From Desulfamplus sp. (lineage in GTDB: Bacteria > Desulfobacterota > Desulfobacteria > Desulfobacterales > Desulfobacteraceae): 64,000 nucleotides of DNA. Of this stretch, positions 14,256 through 22,131 are shown piece after piece. The stretch lies in NCBI GenBank assembly GCA_015232555.1, contig JADFZJ010000002.1, positions 1-64,000 of the forward strand, given 5' to 3'. A program made the position numbers and the translations under genes. Position 1 is the first letter of the stretch. Each line of letters starts with the position of its first letter. The notes below the pieces were generated by a model, which had not been told where the DNA came from, did not search any database, and saw only the letters and a program-made list of their open reading frames with translations.

Positions 14256-15224
14256 TCACACCTTTGGTCTTGGATAAAGCCCACTTCTCTCTACAATCTC
14301 AGGAACTTTTTCTTCCCACTCAATCGCCATGATATGAAAACCTGAAACCCCTTCAACTTCTTTCAGCCGCTGGATCGACTCAACACAGATGTCAATTCCC
14401 TCCTGAGCCTGTTTCTCTTTTGGCACTCCTGCAATACGCTTAATAACCTCATCAGGCACATCCATTCCGGGAACACGGTTCTTCATATACTTTGCCATAC
14501 CAGCAGATTTCATCGGAGTCATGCCAGCCATGATAAATACCTTTTCGTGCAGGCCTCTTTCCCTGACTCTTCTCATCCACTCCTCAAATTTATCAAGGTT
14601 GTAGATGCACTGAGTCTGAATAAATTCAGCACCGCATGCAACCTTTTTGGCAAGACGGGGGACACGAATTTCAAATGGATCAGCAAAAGGGTTGGCAGCA
14701 GCACCGACAAAAATCTTTGGTGGGCGTTTGATGTCATCGCCTCCTAAAAATTTACCCTCATCTCTCATTCTTCTGACTGTCTGAATAAGCTGCATGGAGT
14801 CCAAATCATGGACATTCTGCCCCTGCTTGCAATCTCCGAAACTTTGATGATCTCCACTCAGACAGAGCATGGTGTTTATATTAAAAGATGCAGCACCAAG
14901 TAGATCGCTCTGGAGTGCTATTCTGTTTCTGTCCCTTGTAACCATCTGAAGAACTGGCTCAAGTCCCATCTGTTTTACGTGGATACAGGCAGCAAGAGAG
15001 CACATTCTTGTTACAGCAGTCTGATTATCTGTAGTATTTATTGCATCCACATGATCCTTGATCAATGCCGCTTTTTCAGTTACAGCTTTAGGATCACTGC
15101 CTCTTGGTGGACCGCACTCAGATGTTACGGCAAGATGCCCCATCTTTAAAATCTTTTCTAATTTACTTGATGTTCTAAGTTCGCCAGATGCTTCTAACTC
15201 TTCTAATGTTCTTATGCTCCTCAT
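14256..15224 (-). CDS. metF: Methylenetetrahydrofolate reductase family protein (MetF, paired with MetV)
   Basis: MTHFR motifs (HLAVTSECGPPRGSDP, QMVTRDRNRIALQSDLLGAA, MLCLSGDHQSFGD). Start set at the internal ATG (MRSIRTLEEL), which overlaps the metV stop as ATGA; track start is 15281. Confidence 0.85.
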   Translation of the reverse strand: MRSIRTLEELEASGELRTSSKLEKILKMGHLAVTSECGPPRGSDPKAVTEKAALIKDHVDAINTTDNQTAVTRMCSLAACIHVKQMGLEPVLQMVTRDRNRIALQSDLLGAASFNINTMLCLSGDHQSFGDCKQGQNVHDLDSMQLIQTVRRMRDEGKFLGGDDIKRPPKIFVGAAANPFADPFEIRVPRLAKKVACGAEFIQTQCIYNLDKFEEWMRRVRERGLHEKVFIMAGMTPMKSAGMAKYMKNRVPGMDVPDEVIKRIAGVPKEKQAQEGIDICVESIQRLKEVEGVSGFHIMAIEWEEKVPEIVERSGLYPRPKV

Positions 15225-15889
15225 ACTTGCACGTCCTCCCTTACAACCTTTCTTGGTCCGCCTGCTCTCTCTGTTGACCAATCCTTAATTGGGGCAACAA
15301 TTTCATAATCATCAAGTCTTCCAAGGTCTCTTAACCTGTCAACAATAAGCTGCCATGCACAATCAAGCTCTTTATTTATTTCGCACTTACCTTTGCTTGA
15401 ACCGCCGCAAGGTCCGTTCATAACACGCTTTGCACATCTTGAGATTGGGCAAATTCCACCAGTTCTTGCAAGAATACAAGAACCGCACGCCTGACAACGC
15501 TCTGTCCACATACCTCTCTGTTCATTTGCTCCAAGAAAGCAGGTGTTTACTCCGGGAATAAGTGGAGTGGAGTGGTATTTTTCTGCTGTAAACTGAACCC
15601 CGACTCCACAGGCAAGCGAGAGAATAGCATCATAATTGTCAACTATACCACGAATTTCTTCTAAATACTCGTGGTCGCACTGACGCTCTAAAGTTTTTTC
15701 GTCAATTTTCTTTTCATTGCCCTCTTTGATAAAGTGCATTCTTAAGGCAGATGCAAGAACTTCAACCTCTTTTTTTCCGCCTGCTTCGCATACTGTAACA
15801 CACTCATTACAACCAAGTATGAGAAGTCTCTTGTAATCTTTCACCTCTTGTATAATCTCTTCAATGGGCTTTTTACTTGCTATTATCAT
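15221..15889 (-). CDS. metV: MetV-like methylenetetrahydrofolate reductase C-terminal (zinc/Cys-rich) protein
   Basis: LLILGCNECVTVCEAGGKKEV...ACGVGVQ...CQACGSCILARTGGICPISRCAKRVMNGPCGGSSKGKCE. Confidence 0.85.
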   Translation of the reverse strand: MIIASKKPIEEIIQEVKDYKRLLILGCNECVTVCEAGGKKEVEVLASALRMHFIKEGNEKKIDEKTLERQCDHEYLEEIRGIVDNYDAILSLACGVGVQFTAEKYHSTPLIPGVNTCFLGANEQRGMWTERCQACGSCILARTGGICPISRCAKRVMNGPCGGSSKGKCEINKELDCAWQLIVDRLRDLGRLDDYEIVAPIKDWSTERAGGPRKVVREDVQV

Positions 15890-15986: not shown

Positions 15987-16505
15987 TCAAGCTGCCTTCT
16001 TTTTCGCCTGAAGTGCCACTTTAACAGGATTTGGTCCAAGCTCTTTTATCTTTTTGTCCATCTCAATTGAGTATTGAGCAAAAAGGGGTCCCTCTCCAGA
16101 GGAGAGATTAAACATTTTAACTCTTTCTCCACCAACCCCGATTTTATCAAGAATTTTTGCTGCCTGCTCCACACGTTTTCTTGCACGAAAATTACCACTC
16201 TTGAAATGACAATCACCCTCCATGCAGCCAACCACATAAACACCATCTGCCCCTTTTTCAAATGCCCGCAAAATATGAATCACATCGATCTTGCCAGTGC
16301 ATGGAAGACGAACGATTCTGAAATTTGCAGGACATTTTAATCTCATGGAACCTGCCAGGTCCGCAGCAGAGTATCCTCAGTAGTTACAGCAAAAAGCAAG
16401 AATCAACGGCTCAAAATCTGCCGCATCACTCTCTAATTTACTCTCAATTGGTGCAACTGGTTTACAACAAGCGGATTCAGCCACGGTCTCTACATCATTT
16501 GTCAT
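15987..16505 (-). CDS. mvhD: MvhD-like hydrogenase iron-sulfur subunit, putative selenoprotein (in-frame TGA at 16377-16379)
   Basis: Reading from ATG at 16505 gives MTNDVETVAESACCKPVAPIESKLESDAADFEPLILAFCCNY-[TGA]-GYSAADLAGSMRLKCPANFRIVRLPCTGKID...; TGA sits at the second Cys of the MvhD CNWC-type motif. ATG is 1 nt after the hdrA stop. Confidence 0.88.
16347..16362 (-). promoter_or_regulatory. Candidate bacterial SECIS hairpin of mvhD
   Basis: GGACCU-GGC-AGGUUCC: 6-bp stem with a bulged U and G-containing apical loop starting 21 nt after the TGA. Confidence 0.55.
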
Positions 16506-16506
16506 A

Positions 16507-19500
16507 TTAAATTACCCCCTCCAGCAAGGCTTCCACCTTACTTAGCAATTGATTATCCTCATACCAGTTAAGTTTAATGGTTTTAGCAGGACACTCTGAC
16601 GCACACACTCCGCATCCATGACAGAGAGCGGGGTCAATATAACTTACACCCTCTTCATTTATTATTGGCACATTGTATGGACATGAACGGACGCAGATAA
16701 GGCATGACGCACAGTTCTCCTGATTAACCTCAGCAGTAACAGCAGACAGGGTAAGATGATCCTGAGACAGAAATGTCGTTGCCCTTGATGCAGCAGCCAT
16801 AGCCTGAACTATAGTCTCTGTTATGAGTTTTGGACTGTGGGCAGTTCCGCAGATGAAAATACCCTCTGTGGCAGCTTCAACAGGTTTTAGTTTGACATGA
16901 GCCTCAATAAAGAAACCTTCACGATTGCGTCCAGTCTTGAGAATGGTTGAAAGCTCCTCAGTGTCAGCAGCCTGAACTCCAGCACTTAAGGTTACAAGAT
17001 CAGCGTCAACAGATACCTTTCTGCCAAGAACATGGTCAGTAAATGTTACAGTAAGAGTATCGCTTCCATCACTATTTTTCTCAACAACAGGTGGATTATC
17101 AGGAGTAAATCTGAAAAAGAGAACGCCTTTTTTTCTTGCCTCAGTGTAATACTCCTCAAGCATTGCATACATTCTCATATCTCTGTAGAGAATAAACACA
17201 TCAGCATCAGGGTTTAACTCTTTAATGTGCAGAGCATTTTTTACAGCATTCTGGCAGCAGACCCTTGAGCAGTTTTGATTTTTATCATTTCTTGAGCCGA
17301 CGCACTGAATCATAACCACCTGATTTAAATCATCTGCTCCATCCTCTTCCAATCGACGACCAAGCTCAAGCTGCGTTACAACCCTGTTGCTCTTTTTGTA
17401 GAAATACTCATTCTCTTCTGGCTGATATTCAGTTGCACCAGTTGCAATAATCAAAACACCATGTTCAACCTTACGCTCATACATACCAGGTCCAACCAGG
17501 ATTTCTGTGGTGAAATTGCCTTTGTATCCTGTAAAATCAACAATCAAGGACTGTTTTAGCACCTGAATTTTTTCATGTGATTCAACTTCCGCTGCAAGTT
17601 TTTTCACATATTCACGGATATTTGCACCTTCAATGGTTTTGTAAAGTTTGTTAGCAAGACCGCCAAGTTGAGCCTCTTTTTCAACCAGCACAACATCAAA
17701 CCCCTGATCAGCAAGACCCTTTGCAGCAGTCATTCCTGCAATACCACCACCAATGACTAATGCTCTTACAACTACGGTAATTTGCTTTTCATGCAGAGGT
17801 AGAAGGGTTGCTGCCCTTGCGACTGCCATTCTCACCAAATCTTTTGCCTTGTTCGTTGCTTTTACTGGTTCATGGTAGTGCATCCATGAGTTTTGGTTAC
17901 GAATATTTGCCATTTCAAAGAGATATTTGTTAAGCCCGCTCTTTTCCAAAGTATCCATGAAAATTCCCTCATGGGTCTTTGGTGTGCATGAGGCAACCAC
18001 GATACGATTGAGTTTCTGTTCTTTAATGATTGCTTTCATGTTGTCTTGAGCATCTTGAGAGCAGGTAAAAAGATTTTCTCCCACGTATGCCACACCCGGA
18101 AGCGTTGCAGCGTAATCAGAGACAGCAGGCACATCAACAATACCAGCAATGTTTATTCCGCATTTGCACACAAATACACCGATTCGCGGCTCTTCTCCTG
18201 TAACGTCTCTCTCTTCAACAACTTCAACGCTTTTTGTACAACTGTTGCGAGCTTGAATTAACTGAATACCAGCAGCACAAGCAGCACCACTTGCCTCTGT
18301 AACTGATGACGGAATATCTTTTGGACCTTGGAAAACTCCAGATACAAATACACCGGGTCTTGTAGTTGCAAGTGGATTAAAGGTTGAGGTTTTTGCAAAT
18401 CCGTATTTGTCCAGCTCAACACCAATACTTCTTGCTAAGGCACGGTTCTCTTCTGGAACAACGAGACCTACAGAGAGAATAACCATATCAAACTCTTCTC
18501 TTTGAATATTGCCAGCTTCATCAACATAATTCAGTATAAGATTTCCAGTCTCCCTCACCTCATCAACAGAGTGAACTCTTGATTTGACAAATCTGACCTT
18601 TTGCTCATCTCTTGCCCTGATATAGTATTTTTCATAATCTTTGCCAAAGGTTCGCATATCCATATTAAAGATTGCACAATCAAGCTCATGGTGTGAATGC
18701 TCTTTTGCAATCATTGCATCTTTTACAGCATACATGCAGCAGACCGATGAGCAGTAGCCATTACCGCATTTATTGTTATCGCGTGAACCTATACATTGCA
18801 GCCATGCGATCTTTCCAGGCTCTTTTTCATCAGAAGGACGAACAAGATGTCCCATTGTAGGACCGCCAGCACTTAAAATACGCTCAAATTCAAGGCTTGT
18901 CATAACATTGGGTGAGCGTTTATACATATAAATATCGCTCAATTTTGACGGATCAAAAGGACGGCTTCCAGATGTCATAATAACAGAGCCAACAGAGAGG
19001 TCTTTGTAAACTACCTGCTGACAGTGATCAATTGCACCAGCAAGACACGCCTCAACGCACTGATAGCACTCTGAGCAGATACCGCAGGCAAGACACCTTG
19101 TTGCCTCCTGAACAATCGCCTCTTCTGGCAGACCACAGGTAACTTCGCAGAAATTGCCTTCACGCTCGGCAACGGCTATTTTTGCCGGATTAATTCTTGG
19201 GCGTGGTTTTTGTTTCAAAACCTCTGTAATATCTGGTTTTTCATAATCAAGCTCTTTTTTATGTGCTTGAAATAATTTATCAATCACCTCTTGTGATTTT
19301 AAATCTTCTCCTTGTATGAATCTGTGCATACTGTCTGCTACCTGTTTACCAGATGCAACAGCATCAACAACTGATCTTGGTCCATAAAAGACATCTCCAC
19401 CAGCAAAGACCCAAGGAATTGGAGTTTGAAGAGTTACAGGGTCAGCAGAAAGACCGCCTCTTGGAGTAACAGCAATCTCTTGAGATTTTGCAAACTCAAG

Positions 19501-21057
19501 TTCAGCACTCTGACCAATCGCAACAATAACGTAATCAGCATCAATGGTTATAAGGTCTGTTTCGTCATACTGAGGATTGAATCTGCCTTGCTCATCAAAA
19601 ACAGCCGTGCATTTTTTAAATTCCACACCACCTACAAAACCGTTAGTGTTTGAACCATCTTTTTCAATAAACCTTACAGGTCCGCGGCTATTGACGATTT
19701 TAACCTTCTCTTCAAGAGCCTCTTCAACCTCATAATCCCAAGCAGGCATTTTGACCCGCTCTTCAAGGCAGACCATTGTAACATCTTTTGAGCCAAGTCT
19801 TCTTGCAGTTAAAGCAACGTCAACCGCAACATTTCCACCACCAATTACAATAACTTTACCAAGAAGAGGCTCGCAGCTTGTTGTAAGTGGCTCACCATTC
19901 TCATTTCTTGCCTCGCAATTATGTAAGGCAGCTTCTCTTAAGAAGTTTACACCTTTTAAAACTCCTTGCAGATTCTCTCCCTGAACACCAAGTCCACGAC
20001 TTCCATGAAGTCCAGTTGCAAGAAATAGAGAACTGTAACCATCATTTTTAAGAGATTCAAGAGTTATATCCTTGCCAAACTCCACATTGGTTTTAATCTC
20101 AACTCCCATACTCTCAATGACTCTAATTTCTCGCTGTAACTCTCTGTCTGGCAGACGATACTCAGGAATACCAACTGCCATCATACCACCTTTTACAGGC
20201 AATTTTTCAAAGACAGTTACTCTATAGCCTTTTTTTGCCATGTAGTAGGCAGCAGTTAAACCAGCCGGACCAGAACCAACAATTGCAACCTTTTCATCTC
20301 TTGTTTCTGGAACTTCGGGTATATAAGGCGATTCTGAGGCAAAATCAGTATCTGCTAAAAATCTGTGAAGATATTGGATTGCAAGAGGCTCTTCAACATC
20401 TCCTCTTGTGCAGATTCCTTCGCATGGATGATGACAGACCCTTCCGCAAGCTCCGGGAAATGGATGCTCATCTTTAAAAAGTTTTAGAGCTTCTTTATAT
20501 TTTCCTTGATTTATCAAGGCGACAAAACCTTGAATACTTACGTGGGCTGGACATGTTGCCTTACATGGAGCAGTTGATCGTTTAGAAATACCGTAAGCTC
20601 CGGGAATTGCCTGCTCATACTGTTTAAAAGCAGCCTTTCGCATAGCAAGTCCCTGATTGTGTTCACTTGGGAAACTTATAGGACAAACTTTGGCACATTC
20701 GCCGCAGCTTGTACATTTTGATATATCAATAAAACGAGGTTTTTGCTTTATACGGGCAGTGAAATTGCCCTGTTCACCATCAAGGGCAATAAGTTCTGTA
20801 TTTGTTAGTAATTCAATATTGAGATGCCGGCCGACCTCGACCAGTTTGGGAGAGATGACTCACATGGTGCAGTCATTTGTGGGGAATGTCTTGTCAAGCT
20901 GTGCCATCATCCCCCCGATGGCATAGGATTTTTCTACGAGATATACATAATAACCTGAATTTGCAAGATCAATGGCAGACTGCATTCCGGCGATACCACC
21001 GCCAAGAACCATGACCGACCCAGCAAGATTATCATTTACAGTTGCATTTTCAGCCAT
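16507..21057 (-). CDS. hdrA: HdrA-like protein with embedded GltD/NfnB-like flavoprotein domain and a second HdrA module, putative selenoprotein (in-frame TGA at 20860-20862)
   Basis: ORFs 20860-21057 and 16507-20643 are in the same frame, separated only by TGA and an intervening coding stretch: ...[15 protein letters not shown]-[TGA][80 protein letters not shown].... Multiple FAD/NAD motifs and [4Fe-4S] CxxCxxCxxxCP sites. Confidence 0.9.
20827..20844 (-). promoter_or_regulatory. Candidate bacterial SECIS hairpin of hdrA
   Basis: CUGGUC-GAGGUC-GGCCGG: 6-bp stem (two G-U pairs), apical loop GAGGUC starting 22 nt after the TGA. Confidence 0.65.
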
Positions 21058-21246
21058 TTAATTCTCCTTACCATATCGTTATCCTATCTATTGAACAATT
21101 TTTATATGAAATTATAGGAGGCAGGTGCCTCCACAATATAATTTTAGAGGTTAGATAGAATGTTTAAGATTTGATAACTTTTAAAAAGTTGTGAAACCTA
21201 TACATAAAAAGTTAGTAAAATTTATATTTTAACTTTTAACATCAAA

Positions 21247-22131
21247 CTAGCCGTTAAGACCCTCCATAACACCCAGAATTTCCGGCAGTTTATGCTCCCA
21301 ACCAAGTGTTGAGACATTTACACCACCATATCCTTCAGCTTTTACCGATTCAATCAGCTCTCTTGCCATTTTTGTGCACTCTCTAACCTTGTCAGAGGCA
21401 TTGATCACTCTGTCAACAACTGTTGAGGGCATATTCACCTGATTCACATTCCTTGCCATATATCGTGCCATACCAAGGGATTTCAGCAGAAGAACAGTGG
21501 GTAGAATTTTTACGTTGTTTTTTTCAGCGGTTTTTAAGAAAGGCTGGGTCATGGAGAATTCAAAAAGGGGCTGGGTAACAAAAAAGGAGACACCTGCATC
21601 AATCATTTTTTTCATCTTCTCTAACTCATTCTCACGGTCAGCACCTCTGAGGCATGTATTGAGAGTTGAACCTTTTAAAAAATCAGGATTACCGGCAAGC
21701 TCAACACCTGCCATATCTCGTCCACTCTCCATACCTTTGAGTCCCTTGAGAAATTCTTCAAGGGTTACATCGTAAACCGCCTTTGCTGTGTGGTGATCTC
21801 CAAAACTTGGAGCTTCGCCAGTTACTGCCATAAGTGTATTGATACCGCACGCAGCAGCAGCCAAAACATCTCCTTGAAGAGCAAGTCTGTTTCTGTCTCT
21901 GCAACTGACCTGCACCACAGTATCAAGCCCCTTTTTCTGGAGCAGAAGAGCAGCACCAAGGGAACTCATACGCATCACTGCATTCCCCATTTCAGGCACA
22001 AGGAATGCATCAGCAACTCCTTTGACATTAACTGCATTTTTAACCATTGATGAAACATCTGTCCCCTTGGGTGGTTCTATCTGAACAAGGCAGGCGAATT
22101 CACCAGCTTCAAACTTTTTTCTAAACTGCAT
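21247..22131 (-). CDS. metF: Methylenetetrahydrofolate reductase, second MetF paralogue
   Basis: CLVQIEPPKGTDVSSM, VQVSCRDRNRLALQGDVLAAAACGINTLMAVTGEAPSFGDH. Confidence 0.88.
   Translation of the reverse strand: MQFRKKFEAGEFACLVQIEPPKGTDVSSMVKNAVNVKGVADAFLVPEMGNAVMRMSSLGAALLLQKKGLDTVVQVSCRDRNRLALQGDVLAAAACGINTLMAVTGEAPSFGDHHTAKAVYDVTLEEFLKGLKGMESGRDMAGVELAGNPDFLKGSTLNTCLRGADRENELEKMKKMIDAGVSFFVTQPLFEFSMTQPFLKTAEKNNVKILPTVLLLKSLGMARYMARNVNQVNMPSTVVDRVINASDKVRECTKMARELIESVKAEGYGGVNVSTLGWEHKLPEILGVMEGLNG

Follow-up and report, generated by a model that had tools for sequence, protein, structure and literature searches.

The gene at 15987..16505 (minus strand, stop codon included) of the 64,000-nucleotide stretch of Desulfamplus sp. 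contig JADFZJ010000002.1 analysed here (the window) almost certainly encodes a selenocysteine (Sec)-containing MvhD (FlpD), an iron-sulfur electron-transfer subunit that would form a complex with HdrL, MetV and MetF. Translation of its frame runs from an ATG at 16505 to a TGA stop at 15989-15987 and yields 172 residues with one in-frame TGA at 16377..16379, which would specify Sec43 in the motif CNY-U; the product begins MTNDVETVAES and continues ...FEPLILAFCCNY-TGA-GYSAADLAGSMRLKCPANFRIVRLPCTGKID.... The ATG lies one nucleotide past the TAA (16509-16507) of hdrA and has a GGAGG motif 5′ of it, and retranslation reproduced both the sequence and the placement given in the original prediction (ATG at 16505, 1 nt past the hdrA stop, with the TGA in frame). 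The call expected of a standard gene finder is a truncated ORF of 119 aa, present in the ORF list at 15987..16346 on the minus strand. This ORF is the part of the gene 3′ of the TGA and lacks residues 1-53, and hence both CxxC positions, in agreement with the earlier claim that the tracked ORF is missing its N-terminal metal-binding motif. For annotation, the gene should be recorded as a full-length 172-aa selenoprotein and not as a 119-aa fragment without the CxxU motif.

Against Pfam FlpD (PF02662), the full mvhD frame scored 161.9 bits (cut-off 22.3) and covered profile positions 1-123 of 123, with the domain occupying residues 35-157 and crossing the TGA, while the 119-aa ORF alone scored 126.7 bits over profile positions 21-123, entering the profile 20 positions late. 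The whole-domain score exceeds the curated cut-off and, together with a position adjoining hdrA, places the protein in the MvhD/FlpD family; with the archaeal VhuD model NF045873 it scored 173.3 bits, short of that model’s cut-off of 215. The original prediction had put the TGA at the second Cys of the MvhD consensus. The FlpD alignment through the TGA supports this placement at the second Cys of CxxC (CNY-U), as do Cys relatives, which carry TGC or TGT there. The surrounding AFCCNY-U-GYSAADLAG corresponds to FCCNWC-SYGGAD in MvhD proteins of solved structure; the best match among these, PDB 9sfi_K, shows a non-standard residue (X) where Sec43 aligns. CxxU is given as the motif of Sec-containing FrhD/MvhD in a 2026 review (PMC13188914).

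A scan of named genomes returned 80 mvhD loci, the closest of them from Desulfamplus. TGA stands at the identical codon, as the sole in-frame stop, in 79 of these 80 relatives, and the protein is conserved on both sides of it; the single exception, L105, has TGC at the site. Desulfamplus magnetovallimortis (L030) shares the TGA. Homology 5′ of the TGA is therefore retained, as is the TGA itself, in the comparison with relatives that the original prediction had proposed. A second sample, 248 genomes drawn from the same phylum, contained many more TGA forms plus a set of Cys forms, and a tree of 85 MvhD sequences implies at least about six transitions between Sec and Cys. Both states are inherited by descent, so that counts of relatives are not independent of one another. 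TAA occurred inside the match in three matches from other genomes, and the one inspected (L134) proved to be the normal end stop of a Cys MvhD, 125 codons beyond the site.

Within the coding sequence just 3′ of the TGA, nucleotides 16-32 counted from the TGA read GCGGACCTGGCAGGTTC and include the apical stem-loop of a bacterial SECIS, GGACCU-GGC-AGGUUCC (16347..16362, minus strand), with a 6-bp stem and a GGC loop that begins at the 21st nucleotide after the UGA. Bacterial SECIS elements in general have a stem of 4-16 bp and a loop of 3-14 nt, with a G in the first two loop bases and the loop 16-37 nt past the UGA, a geometry that the mvhD hairpin fits. Codons 5-9 past the TGA are GCG GAC CTG GCA GGT. 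Among 96 distinct Sec genes the first three of these never vary, and the last two, GCA and GGT, are each present in 95; synonymous variation here would leave the protein unchanged. The codons immediately flanking the hairpin are freely variable in Sec genes, and elsewhere in these genes GCA makes up just 22% of the codons for alanine and GGT 19% of those for glycine. In 11 Cys relatives the hairpin codons vary (GCA in 0/11, GGT in 3/11), and for the Sec genes (96) versus the Cys genes (11), counts that are linked by kinship, Fisher p values were 4e-14 for GCA, 4e-9 for GGT, 1e-7 for CTG and 4e-6 for GAC. The conserved sites form the stem U23-A27, C22-G28, C21-G29 and A20-U30. Two Sec genes, L113 and L161, have GGG for GGT and so lose the U at position 30; both have TCC next, and the full stem can be restored in a shifted register, by folding in L113 and by inspection in L161. 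Conservation that goes beyond the protein code and is lost in Cys forms assigns the element to SECIS, and this synonymous-site pattern is the mark of selection on a SECIS.

Folding energy by itself would not have established the hairpin; the comparison of relatives does. The 55 nt past the TGA folded no better than shuffled sequence (z -0.72), and folding energy alone was therefore rejected as evidence for the hairpin; an Rfam scan of 16000-21200 gave nothing above any gathering score and no bacterial SECIS match, a result that speaks neither for nor against it. Two pairings fit the lower stem, one with a bulged U31 (G18-C33, G19-C32) and one unbulged (G18-C32, G19.U31), the latter being the fold of lowest energy for the hairpin in isolation. 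A bulged U is found in the SECIS stem of E. coli fdhF. All four bases occur at position 33, leaving G18-C33 unconserved, and the bulged pairing was not adopted as the sole form. The hairpin of the original prediction thus stands in its presence and in its loop at 21 nt, and its bulged U becomes one of two pairings. The relatives assembled, about 100 with Sec and two dozen with Cys, provide a clean example of synonymous-site conservation proving a SECIS where folding energy cannot.

The genome encodes a complete bacterial Sec machinery, as expected of a genome with a Sec protein, and the check for sel genes named in the original prediction came out positive throughout: tRNA-Sec (74.4 bits, anticodon TCA), SelB (376.7 bits, above the cut-off), SelA (504.3 bits) and SelD (364.5 bits). 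The SelD gene (L023, G000:C21:14120-15043) itself contains a single in-frame TGA, as would fit a SelD with Sec. Among genomes with a TGA MvhD, SelA was not found in a few, namely eight drafts that are 62-82% complete and one that is 91% complete; the exceptions being drafts, the co-occurrence of SelA with TGA MvhD is consistent with Sec use but makes no sharp test. Six FlpD domains are present in the Desulfamplus genome, two of them with a TGA. The second TGA MvhD, on contig C86 (L002, G000:C86:7750-8118; L155), has its TGA at the corresponding codon, identical hairpin nucleotides after it, a Cys in the HdrA motif upstream, and metV-like and metF-like genes downstream. On contig C82 (L001, L154), MvhD and the HdrA upstream of it both have Cys, and this copy could be a selenium-independent counterpart.

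Were the TGA a true stop, mvhD would be a frame-broken pseudogene or the product of a sequencing error, with the 119-aa ORF as its remnant. An automatic caller would see exactly such an ORF, and the 55-nt fold taken alone, no better than shuffled, would not contradict it; set against this are a TGA shared at this codon by 79/80 relatives from separate assemblies, a protein conserved on both sides of it and synonymous sites that are frozen, which leave this explanation with next to no probability. The relatives rule out pseudogene and sequencing error alike, bearing out the original prediction, which had considered both unlikely. It is just as improbable that the TGA is read as an amino acid other than Sec, whether by code reassignment or by near-cognate suppression. 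A frame that stays open under an altered code would be silent on the residue inserted, but tRNA-Sec, SelA, SelB and SelD are all in the genome, the TGA sits at a Cys position with a conserved hairpin after it, and internal TGA is absent from four of the five other FlpD copies of the genome and from MetV and MetF. Reading of the mvhD TGA as Sec is thus supported, each test named in the original prediction that was run having come out in its favour.

In addition to Sec insertion, the UGA might serve as a selenium-dependent switch, such that without selenium a truncated product is made and a Cys paralogue, e.g. the C82 MvhD, takes over. The Cys MvhD with a Cys HdrA in the same genome would suit such a role, Methanococcus maripaludis is described as using Cys isoforms in a selenium-dependent way (PMC11097638), and a similar arrangement has been suggested for D. 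autotrophicum (PMC2702500). The C82 copy is, however, a distant paralogue on a long branch, and we regard a switch of this kind as unlikely.

The partner gene upstream is an hdrL-type HdrA/GltD fusion of 1516 codons at 16507..21057 (minus strand; profile matches and translation), a count that includes an in-frame TGA of its own at 20860..20862 (PTNDCTM-U-VISPK). The tracked HdrA ORF of 1378 aa is missing the N-terminal 138 residues, and annotation of the partner should likewise continue through its TGA. This site is TGA in 63 of the 63 Sec-MvhD relatives in which it is readable and within reach, and the apical SECIS hairpin downstream, CUGGUCG-AGGU-CGGCCGG (20827..20844, minus strand), identified by folding and in relatives, is invariant. 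L105, which has a Cys MvhD, has Cys at the HdrA site too. Sec MvhD is accompanied by Cys at the matched HdrA motif in 17 fetched loci, the C86 copy of the same genome included. The reverse combination, Sec HdrA beside Cys MvhD, was not seen in 16 Cys-MvhD loci (L105 and 15 further loci, all with Cys HdrA). On these distributions the HdrA Sec looks nested within the MvhD Sec and not independent of it. If Sec use is widely nested in the two partners in this way, Sec at MvhD could conceivably be a precondition for Sec at HdrA along the electron path, an idea that we hold only tentatively. The original prediction had relied on two independent TGA-for-Cys events in neighbouring genes; the second TGA is real, but the independence is weaker, since within the clade both TGAs are passed on jointly, and their value as independent proofs is softened accordingly. 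The comparison of synonymous sites between Sec and Cys genes is the stronger proof.

Downstream of mvhD, ORFs and profile matches locate a metV-like gene (MTHFR C-terminal, PF12225) at 15221..15889 and metF, methylenetetrahydrofolate reductase (PF02219), at 14256..15281, both on the minus strand, and metV plus metF follow mvhD in 67 of the 68 relatives with enough downstream sequence. A second MTHFR-family gene (PF02219) lies upstream of hdrL at 21247..22131 (minus strand; ORFs and profile match), so that the cluster has two metF-like genes; such a gene is found upstream of hdrL in 32/61 relatives, about half. With hdrA, mvhD, metV and metF in one cluster, the locus has an Hdr-type MTHFR gene set; the ORFs adjoining the mvhD cluster showed no hdrBC. 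It is established that MvhD carries electrons between a donor and HdrA (PMC2702500, PMC5109826). For Moorella thermoacetica, a complex with this arrangement has been put forward, in which the 163-kDa HdrA bears a GltD insert (PMC9430772).

From these elements we infer how the protein may be made and used. By sequence, UGA at codon 43 takes the place of the second CxxC Cys, with the SECIS hairpin just 3′ of it in the coding sequence; SelB with Sec-tRNA would bind the hairpin and insert Sec, giving the full 172-aa protein. MvhD would then dock on the neighbouring Sec-containing, HdrL-type HdrA/GltD fusion and could join MetV and MetF of the same cluster in an Hdr-type methylenetetrahydrofolate reductase complex in this Desulfamplus-like sulfate reducer. 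The most likely role would be to pass electrons between the MetVF reductase and an NAD(P)H-linked HdrL, and Sec43 of the CxxU would probably lie at or near the iron-sulfur site. Membership in an MTHFR complex is suggested only by gene order and by the Moorella and Sporomusa precedent.

Compared with that precedent, the MetVF-HdrBCA-MvhD complexes of Moorella and Sporomusa (PMC9430772), Desulfamplus shares MvhD, MetV, MetF and a large HdrA (which in Moorella has the GltD insert); the published complexes include HdrBC, whereas the ORFs next to the gene cluster of the predicted Desulfamplus complex showed no hdrBC. The archaeal VhuD type (NCBIfam NF045873; 9sfi_K) shares the FlpD family and, in 9sfi_K, a non-standard residue at the aligned CxxU position, but 9sfi_K has a second X where the Desulfamplus protein has Cys94. 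The original prediction had pointed to the Sec form of VhuD/MvhD in Methanococcales, and the pair is not confined to these, being known also in bacteria, in Deltaproteobacteria and Clostridia (PMC1794560).

The finding of Sec MvhD beside Sec HdrA is correct, and its kind has been known from this group of bacteria since 2006-2009. A 2006 study counted 19 FrhD and 16 HdrA selenoproteins in bacteria, with Sec FrhD/MvhD and Sec HdrA present in Deltaproteobacteria; the genomes with both families are those of Syntrophobacter, Syntrophus, Desulfotalea and a number of Clostridia, Moorella among them (PMC1794560). In those genomes the same two selenoprotein families are listed together, the deltaproteobacterial ones in operons, some as hdrA_N-unknown-hdrA_C; the operon described from Deltaproteobacteria, glpC-hdrA-frhD-frhG-frhA, contains hydrogenase genes (PMC1794560), whereas the Desulfamplus partners are metV and metF. 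In Desulfococcus multivorans, too, HdrA and MvhD are Sec proteins with SECIS (PMC5109826). Desulfobacterium autotrophicum HRM2, described in 2009, has four Sec MvhD (mvhD1, 2, 3 and 5) and Sec HdrL proteins followed by mvhD (PMC2702500); it belongs to the same bacterial group and shows the same order of HdrL (HdrA/glutamate synthase fusion) and mvhD, both with Sec, but is another species, and the Desulfamplus mvhD copy adjoins metV and metF. Beyond its annotation, the mvhD case is one more instance of this published pattern.
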